A stretch of DNA of 64,000 nucleotides from Agelas oroides (taxonomy: Eukaryota; Porifera; Demospongiae; Agelasida; Agelasidae), in assembly GCA_949130485.1 (NCBI GenBank), contig OX422196.1:8542630-8606629 (forward strand). Direction: 5' to 3'. The notes under the pieces were generated by a model. That model was not told the DNA's origin. It saw only the letters and a list, made by a program, of their open reading frames with translations, and ran no database searches. Positions within the stretch are counted from its first letter, which is position 1. Each line of letters opens with the position of its first letter. The position numbers and the translations under genes were made by a program. Shown in pieces: positions 5,901 through 8,900 of this stretch.

Positions 5901-8900
5901 CTGTAGGGCCTTGTACTGTAGGGCTTTCTACTGTGGGGCCTTCTACTGTAGGGCTTTCTACTGTGGGGCCTTCTACTGTAGGACCTTCTGCTGTAGGACC
6001 TTCAACTGTGGGGCCTTGTACTGTGGGGCCTTCTACTGTAGGGCCTTGTACTGTGGGGCCTTCTACTGTAGGACCTTCTACTGTAGGACCTTGTACTGTA
6101 GGACCTTCAACTGTGGGGCCTTGTACTGTGGGGCCTTGTACTGTAGGGCTGTATCGCTGATGTGTACATTAGAACATTAGGTGGCAACAGAGTGAATGTC
6201 CTCGAAGTTTTCTTCATAGCAATATGTGTGTGTGTGTGTGTGTGTGGGTGTGTGAGTGTGAGTGTGGGTGTGTGTGTGAGTGTGAGTGAGTGTGGATGTG
6301 TGTGAGTGTGGGTATATGTGTGTGAGTGTGGGTGAGTGTGGGTGAGTGTGTGAGTAAAGGTGCTATTGTTTGCTACAGGGACTGGACGAAACCGGTCTTG
6401 CTCAAGAACATGGATGAAGACGTACTGAACCTAGGTCTGCCTGTATGGGACCCCAGGGTAAGTGGCTAGTCTTTTCCGAGGATGAAAATCACCCTCAGTA
6501 CAATCCTGTTCTCTGCACCCCAGATCAACCCCTCTGACCGTTTCCATCTGATGCCCATCATCACTCCAGCCTACCCCCAGCAGAACTCCACCTTCAATGT
6601 GACCCTCTCCACACGCTCTGTCATGCTCAAAGAGTTTAAGAGAGGTATAGACTCTGTCATGCTCAAAGAGTTTAAGAGAGGTATAGACTCTGTCATGCTC
6701 AAAGAGTTTAAGAGAGGTACAGACTCTGTCATGCTCAAAGAGTTTAAGAGAGGTACACGCTCTGTCATGCTCAAAGAGTTTAAGAGAGGTACACGCTCTG
6801 TCATGCTCAAAGAGTTTAAGAGAGGTACAGACTCTGTCAAGTTTAAGAGAGGTACACACTCTGTCAAGTTTAAGAGAGGTACAGACTCTGTCAAGTTTAA
6901 GAGAGGTACACACTCTGTCAAGTTTAAGAGAGGTACACACTCTGTCAAGTTTAAGAGAGGTACAGACTCTGTCAAGTTTAAGAGAGGTACACACTCTGTC
7001 AAGTTTAAGAGAGGTACACACTCTGTCAAGTTTAAGAGAGGTACAGACTCTGTCAAGTTTAAGAGAGGTACAGACTCTGTCAAGTTTAAGAGAGGTACAG
7101 ACTCTGTCAAGTTTAAGAGAGGTACACACTCTGTCAAGTTTAAGAGAGGTACAGACTCCAAATGGTCTACTCCAAGATGGTTTTGCACTAGCTACAGTGA
7201 AGAACGAGGCTCATGTCAGGGCCATGGTGGGTCTTCCAAGAAATGTTTGATGTCTTGGGAAACCTATACCTGTGTTTGCCAATAGAAGTTTTGGTGGTCC
7301 TTTGAACCTATCTATTCAAGCTAGTGTAAGGATAGGCTTCCGTCATGTGAGCCAATTTTTGGTCAACTCTGGGTCTTCTCATCATCCGTTCTGATCTTTA
7401 TGCTGACAGGGGAAGCATAGTTATGCATGACATCACATCATTATACTGTGCAGTGTATGTGTTCATGGGATGTTTACCTGCAGGTCTGGACCTTTGCACT
7501 GACATTGTCCTCGGTCGAAAGACCTGGGAGGACCTTTTTGATCCCCTCAACTTCTTCTCCCTCTTCAAGTACGTGAAAACTCCCCCCCTCCCCCCTCCCT
7601 TCCCCTATCATGATCTCAGTGTGTGTGTGTGCTGCTGTGCGTTGATACTTCCGTGTCTCTACAGGCATTATATTGTGATATGTGCAAATGCTTCTGATGC
7701 TGAACAACTGTTGAAATGGTGAGTGACAGCCAATTTGTTAGTTGAGCGTGCACACTCCTTCCTGTCTGATGTCTGTCAGTTTGTGTCCATGCATTCCTCT
7801 TACATACAGGTCTGGCTTAGTGGAGTCCAAGATTCGTATTCTGATTGGTCACCTCGAGAACAACGGGGGTATTGAACTGGCTCACGTCTACCCCACCTCC
7901 TATGGCCCCCGCTCTCCAGACAGGTGTGTAAACTCGTGTAGTACACTCATACCTCGGCCTTCTGATGCCTAGTGCTAACACTAAGGGTCAGAATGCCAGG
8001 TTGTGAGGCTACCTGTGTGGAAGTGTTCTAATTATAGCCGCCTCCTCTCCAGTCCACAGTATACATCAATGTGGTTCATTGGTTTGGAGTTCAAGAAAAC
8101 ACCCGGTGGTGGTGTTAATATTGAAATCACCTTTGAGATACAAACCTTCATTAATGCAGGTTAGTGGAGTCATACTGAGGGTATCCCCCTCCCCCTCTCT
8201 CCTCTGGTTCCTCTTCCCCCAACAGCTGATGCATGTCTTTGTCTCCTGCAGTGTTGGCCATTAGCTCTAAGAACCAGGAGCTGAGGGAGGGCACACACCT
8301 GGAAGTGAAGCATGTTAGAAAGTAGGTACAGCTCTGCTTGTCCTTGCCACTCTCTGAGCTACTCTCCCCCTCCCAACAGGAAACAGCTGGCAGAGTATTT
8401 GCCTGCCAGTGTGCTGCCTCCACCCAGCAAGAAGAAGCGATCCCTGCCTCCCGTAAGCCAGCTCTATGTCTTTACCAACTCCAGTGTACCAACTAGTGAC
8501 TGTTTCACCCCTAGCCTGTGGAGACACCCTCCCCCATACTTTACAAACGCCAGAGGAGAACGGATGACGACTATACCAGTGTGCCGGCGAAAAAAAGATT
8601 GAAGGAAGACAGCCAGAGTGAGGACATGTCCCAGAATAAGGTGCGTTTTGAGGTGTTTTCCTTGTGTATGTGTGTGTGTTGCTGATTTGCTGTTGTGTGG
8701 GATATGCACTTATCTCAGCAGTCTTGTGAGGCCTCGATGCAGCAGAGTGTCACCGAGAGCATGACACAACAGAGTGTCACCGAGAGCATGACACAGCAGA
8801 GTGTCACCGAGAGCATGACACAGCAGAGCGTCACCGAGAGCATGACACAACAGAGTGTCACCGAGAGCACGGCACAACAGAGCGTCACCGAGAGCACGGC

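Follow-up and report, generated by a model that had tools for sequence, protein, structure and literature searches.

An 18-fold repeat of an exon end and its splice donor in a sponge poly(A) polymerase gene, with similar arrays at other exon ends

The 64,000-nt stretch of Agelas oroides DNA analysed here (the window) carries a poly(A) polymerase (PAP) gene on its forward strand, with an array of repeated splice donors at the end of one of its exons. From 3150 onward, the gene was read by hand as 20 exons with GT-AG borders. With the first donor of the array, this model is one open frame of 757 codons with a stop near 9580, and it requires just one intron between 6644 and 7484. Its 19 introns span 58–1204 nt, with a median of 121 nt (array intron included). 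On the reverse strand, positions 1–2700 look like a myosin head gene and 9840–10900 like a cathepsin L-type protease gene. The features of the array, all on the forward strand, are:

6524..6644, + strand: PAP exon as ended at donor 1, phase 1 (ungapped PAP alpha and gamma match over the join; 20-exon model open)
6611..6646, + strand: probable 36-bp founder segment: 34 bp of exon end followed by the intron GT
6617..6832, + strand: six 36-bp units, SVMLKEFKR plus donor (TRF and direct reading)
6645..6646, + strand: donor 1, GAG|GTATAG (position and a matrix score of 1.3)
6833..7158, + strand: twelve 27-bp units, each SVKFKR plus donor; the final unit merges into single-copy intron
7149..7150, + strand: donor 18, GAG|GTACAG, giving an intron of 335 nt versus 839 nt from donor 1
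7228..7229, + strand: in-phase donor-like CATG|GTGGGT, 3' of the array (matrix score 6.6)
7484..7568, + strand: next PAP exon, with an acceptor common to all 18 donors (homology across the join)

The motif AAGAGAG|GTA occurs 18 times in the array. The first bases of the GT dinucleotides lie at 6645, 6681, 6717, 6753, 6789 and 6825 and thereafter every 27 bp up to 7149, so that donors are spaced by 36 bp (5 gaps) and then by 27 bp (12 gaps). All 18 fit GAG|GTAYA(G/C), and their nine-base forms are GAGGTACAG (eight donors), GAGGTACAC (eight) and GAGGTATAG (two). TRF reports 6.2 copies of 36 bp at 6616–6839 and 12.8 copies of 27 bp at 6813–7158, with 97% matches in each. This repetition is far above chance. 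Minisatellites are head-to-tail repeats of units of about 10–100 bp with high identity, which describes the array (36/27 bp, 97%). Tandem alternative 5' splice sites are two or more donors sharing an acceptor, and here 18 donor-like sites precede the acceptor at 7484. A sequence-only reading of the same DNA had described an exon end and its donor repeated 18 times in the PAP gene, in 36- and 27-bp units of a single phase with no stop; the motif count, TRF and direct reading confirm this. It had also given the unit as SVMLKEFKR plus donor, which is correct for the first 6 copies; the other 12, shorter by 9 bp, read SVKFKR.

Tandem arrays are prone to assembly errors, and one could have expanded or shuffled the copies. 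We consider this highly improbable. The variants are ordered along the array (three donor types; 36-bp and then 27-bp units), the array is just ~540 bp long and arrays of the same kind occur at other exon ends, as described below.

Other repeats lie in the window. A second array in the PAP gene (8743–8985) consists of nine in-frame copies of a 27-bp unit that reads ESxTQQSVT; it is wholly exonic, and its end coincides with the donor of the exon, CAA|GTGAGT (8985), which is not included in the repeat. A 15-bp minisatellite of 64 copies (5190–6149) takes up most of the length of a 1204-nt PAP intron, beginning 15 nt past the donor; this intron lies two introns upstream of the donor array. Farther along, at 29587–31702, a 75-bp unit is repeated 28 times with 97% matches and carries GATG|GTGAGTG in each unit. 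Its consensus is open in one frame, by eye and as far as it was read.

Homology identifies which donor is ancestral. When the exon ended at donor 1 is joined to the exon at 7484, the product aligns with PAP gamma (4lt6) over 118 residues without a gap (E 3.3e-44) and with PAP alpha (1f5a, 1q78) over 119 residues, also without a gap. Because the match is ungapped at donor 1, this donor is the ancestral exon end. Pfam places PAP_central at residues 2–60 and PAP_RNA-bind at residues 63–118 of the joined sequence, and the join falls after residue 40, so any insert lands inside the PAP_central match. A search that gives a lower bound located the array once in the 259-Mb genome, and a PAP query had this locus as its sole match. 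With a single PAP locus, a working PAP product must come from here.

Each of the 18 donors gives an open reading when the first 75 nt from 7484 are placed behind it, which bears out the earlier claim that any donor fits the phase of the next exon. The donors could therefore encode an isoform ladder, in which several of them are appreciably used and 0–168 extra Lys/Arg-rich residues are placed between VMLKEFKR and GLDLC. The largest insert is 504 nt, or 168 residues, and would extend the exon from 121 to 625 nt. In favor of a ladder, the phase is kept at every donor and the array donors are near-equal in strength, with three sequence types; against it, the insert would sit within the PAP_central match and the variable sites of the units give no synonymous excess. 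These sites are synonymous in 0 of 3 cases among five 36-bp units and in 0 of 1 among twelve 27-bp units (0/4 together). They give no indication of selection acting on a translated repeat, but tell little, being far too few to exclude it. We judge the ladder rather unlikely, for further reasons given with the sister arrays.

The 17 other donors appear to derive from tandem duplication across the exon–intron border; the 36-bp unit combines 34 bp of exon with the intron GT. Copies 1 and 2 are identical over the last 29 exon bases and match over 34 with mismatches. Copies 4 and 5 carry GGTACACGC, in which ACACGC from the exon itself comes right after the intron GT. This junction and the identity of copies 1 and 2 point to a 36-bp founder that began at exon position -34 and ended at intron position +2. 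Removing 9 bp from the 36-bp unit gives the 27-bp unit. Microhomology between exon and intron (ACAcgCTC and ACAgaCTC) seemed by eye a good cause of the founder event, but it is not above chance. The best 10-mer identity of the true offset was reached at 29 of 69 other offsets in PAP, and at 30 in inturned, 60 in UPF1, 25 in L057 and 43 in ADRM1, which are sister arrays introduced below. We dropped this reading because so many offsets reached the same identity.

We scanned the genome for runs of three strong donors (AGGTRAGT) at minisatellite spacings, a pattern that would miss the PAP array itself. Three such searches gave 185, 131 and 76 places. Among the matches listed (about 100, about 100 and all 76, respectively) we distinguished at least 45 arrays by eye and read 33 of them (13 of 13, 14 of 24 new and 6 of 8 new). 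The 12 unread arrays were picked by eye: 11 look GT- or GA-rich, and C3:17968970 is an apparent coding repeat on the opposite strand. Four of the 33 lie at exon ends with homology support (L048, L055, L056 and L074) and two more probably do (L057 and L064):

ADRM1/RPN13 (C4, near 134,405): 6 donors, 46-bp unit; donor-1 join ungapped versus 4wlr, E 3.6e-21
inturned (G000:C5, near 2,775,790): 28 donors, 43-bp unit; join IWRE|V ungapped versus 9rs8, E 1.6e-16; Pfam Intu_longin_2
UPF1 (L056, G000:C11:329900-331900, 732-1110, near 330,632): 8 donors, 54-bp unit; ungapped over 109 residues across the join versus 2xzo, E 8.4e-55
DNAAF5 (L074; C15, near 2,976,907): 29-bp unit; Pfam TPR_DNAAF5, E 6.2e-21
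L057, probable: 62-bp unit; open with donor 1 alone
L064, probable: 64-bp unit; 831-nt open frame upstream

For DNAAF5, the significant Pfam match covers the sequence up to residue 48, whereas the join falls at residue 61, 13 residues farther on; this supports the exon and leaves the join putative. L057 had no Pfam match and no convincing PDB match, and Pfam gave no match for L064. Four candidates were left uncounted at exon ends: L058, L063, L069 (at a TPR exon, with only ~8 nt of exon in the shared sequence) and L071 (a coding-like exon with irregular GA-rich repeats). A separate 62-bp array (L066, G000:C16:39600-41500), read by eye on the other strand, is a possible mirror case in which an acceptor is repeated together with a few bases of exon. 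It precedes a HECT-like exon, whose Pfam HECT match (E 1.5e-4, 22.0 bits) is under the 23.9 cut-off.

We claim no excess of such arrays over chance and see no sign of one. The AGGTRAGT searches and their reversed-pattern controls gave 185 versus 157, 131 versus 155 and 76 versus 122 places, and TGGTRAGT gave 637 versus 438; these places overlap one another, and most of the counts come from a few large arrays.

The sister arrays bear on whether phase matters. The frame stays open into the next exon from 1 of 6 donors in ADRM1, 1 of 28 in inturned and 1 of 6 in L057, and in each case the open one is donor 1. In DNAAF5, 1 of 15 AGGTGA sites is open, again donor 1 (10 of the 15 are at the unit's own donor place). 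UPF1 is the exception, with all 8 donors open. Units divisible by three occur in 2 of 7 arrays, or in 1 of 6 excluding PAP, which was itself chosen for phase. Since this is the chance level, the phase of the PAP array needs no special cause. The sequence-only reading had taken the kept phase as a pointer to an isoform ladder; that argument loses its force, as the ADRM1, inturned and DNAAF5 arrays (46, 43 and 29 bp) persist without frame compatibility, which is therefore not required. The same nine bases recur in all 28 inturned donors. If the sister genes work, the spliceosome must pick the first of up to 28 donors that share nine bases.

UPF1 speaks for a ladder as a second frame-compatible array. 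Its 8 donors are identical (CAG|GTGAGT) and its 54-bp unit reads VSGLVTRLNGSMPQRLYQ. Across 7 units, every one of the three variable sites is synonymous. With a per-site expectation between about 0.25 (counting all changes) and 0.33 (for transitions), the probability of this is about 0.015 to 0.037, for one of several features looked at. It is a weak hint that the UPF1 units may be translated.

Donor strength was scored in PAP with a matrix derived from the 18 donors of the gene outside the array. Array donors score 1.3–1.9 and the other donors 5.2–10.6, a comparison that favors the latter because they score themselves. With leave-one-out scoring, and one misplaced donor excluded, gene donors score 1.0 to 10.0 and array donors -0.3 to 0.5. 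Array donors have A instead of G at +5. As they are weaker than the other 18, some leakage is plausible. By matrix, the candidate site at 7228 (CATG|GTGGGT, 6.6) is stronger than the array donors.

This site raises the alternative that the whole array is exonic, with donor 7149 or the stronger 7228 site used and a long fixed insert in the protein. The 7228 site is in phase, the frame is open up to it, and an intron from there would be ~255 nt, near the lengths of PAP's other introns. Such an insert would however add at least 168 residues to a conserved domain whose alignment is ungapped at donor 1, and the last donor is frame-incompatible in ADRM1, inturned and DNAAF5. We regard an exonic array as improbable.

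Intron length offers a guide to donor choice. Between near-equal competing human donors, the upstream one is favored under exon definition (long introns) and the downstream one, closest to the acceptor, under intron definition; the boundary above which the upstream donor is favored is 250 nt (PMC9225289). Minigenes with 365-nt introns and identical donors used the upstream donor exclusively, and a short upstream intron with a long downstream one heightened the upstream preference (PMC9225289). The PAP array exon has a 66-nt intron upstream and a long one downstream. Introns from donor 1 are 839 nt in PAP, 675 in UPF1, 546 in ADRM1, 1311 in inturned, 851 in DNAAF5 and 593 in L057, and those from the last donor are 335, 297, 308, 150, 273 and 283 nt in the same order. 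Donor-1 introns thus exceed the 250-nt boundary, which comes from human data, in all six arrays measured (546–1311 nt). Growth of an array lengthens the intron and may itself favor donor 1. Applied here, the human rule is extended outside human cells, and it may fail in this animal.

Our preferred reading, to which we give a probability of about 70%, is that the PAP array is an exon-border minisatellite that behaves mostly as intron, with the first donor used. Tandem duplication would have copied a 36-bp segment (34 bp of exon end plus two intron bases); 9 bp would then have been lost from one lineage of copies, and the array would have expanded to 18 copies with a donor in each. The spliceosome would take donor 1, the ancestral exon end, and remove the remaining copies, giving normal PAP. 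The kept phase would most likely be luck: it would let the gene tolerate a later donor being used now and then, and would not code for a ladder. Several findings count against an intron-like array: its donors are PAP's weakest by matrix with a stronger in-phase site at 7228, the other PAP introns are short while human intron definition favors the donor nearest the acceptor, and the three UPF1 sites are synonymous. A broader proposal is that exon-end donor arrays are a recurrent class in this genome and that the frame-compatible ones, in the RNA-metabolism genes PAP and UPF1, use several donors, so that array length sets a series of enzyme isoforms and copy gain or loss changes it; this we consider unlikely.

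Related systems are known. In a potato RdRp gene, tandem duplication over an intron–exon border created a new intron (PMC4974935). As there, a duplication spanning the border appears here to have multiplied splice signals; the potato case is a single duplication on the acceptor side that made a new intron, whereas here it is on the donor side, in many copies, in an existing intron and in several genes. Studies of competing donors likewise deal with near-equal donors and one acceptor, but they concern donor pairs in human genes and minigenes (PMC9225289), whereas these are natural arrays of 6–28 candidate donors. Minisatellites alter human gene structure, with ~30-bp units lengthening exons or introns, as in PAP; unlike the PAP array, the passages of that paper describe no gene's own donor repeated at an exon end (PMC2812944). 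Titles and abstract openings in the open-access literature gave no report of many-fold repetition of a gene's own donor.

We accept the earlier suggestion that the locus may test choice among near-identical donors. Most work on such choice uses minigenes with two sites. Here, natural arrays place 6–28 identical or near-identical donors at the ends of coding exons, and in several of them the reading frame itself would serve as a reporter. The inturned array would be such a reporter, with 28 donors sharing nine bases of which only the first is predicted to be productive. Comparing PAP and UPF1 with the other arrays would reveal whether leakage is greater where later donors keep the frame.
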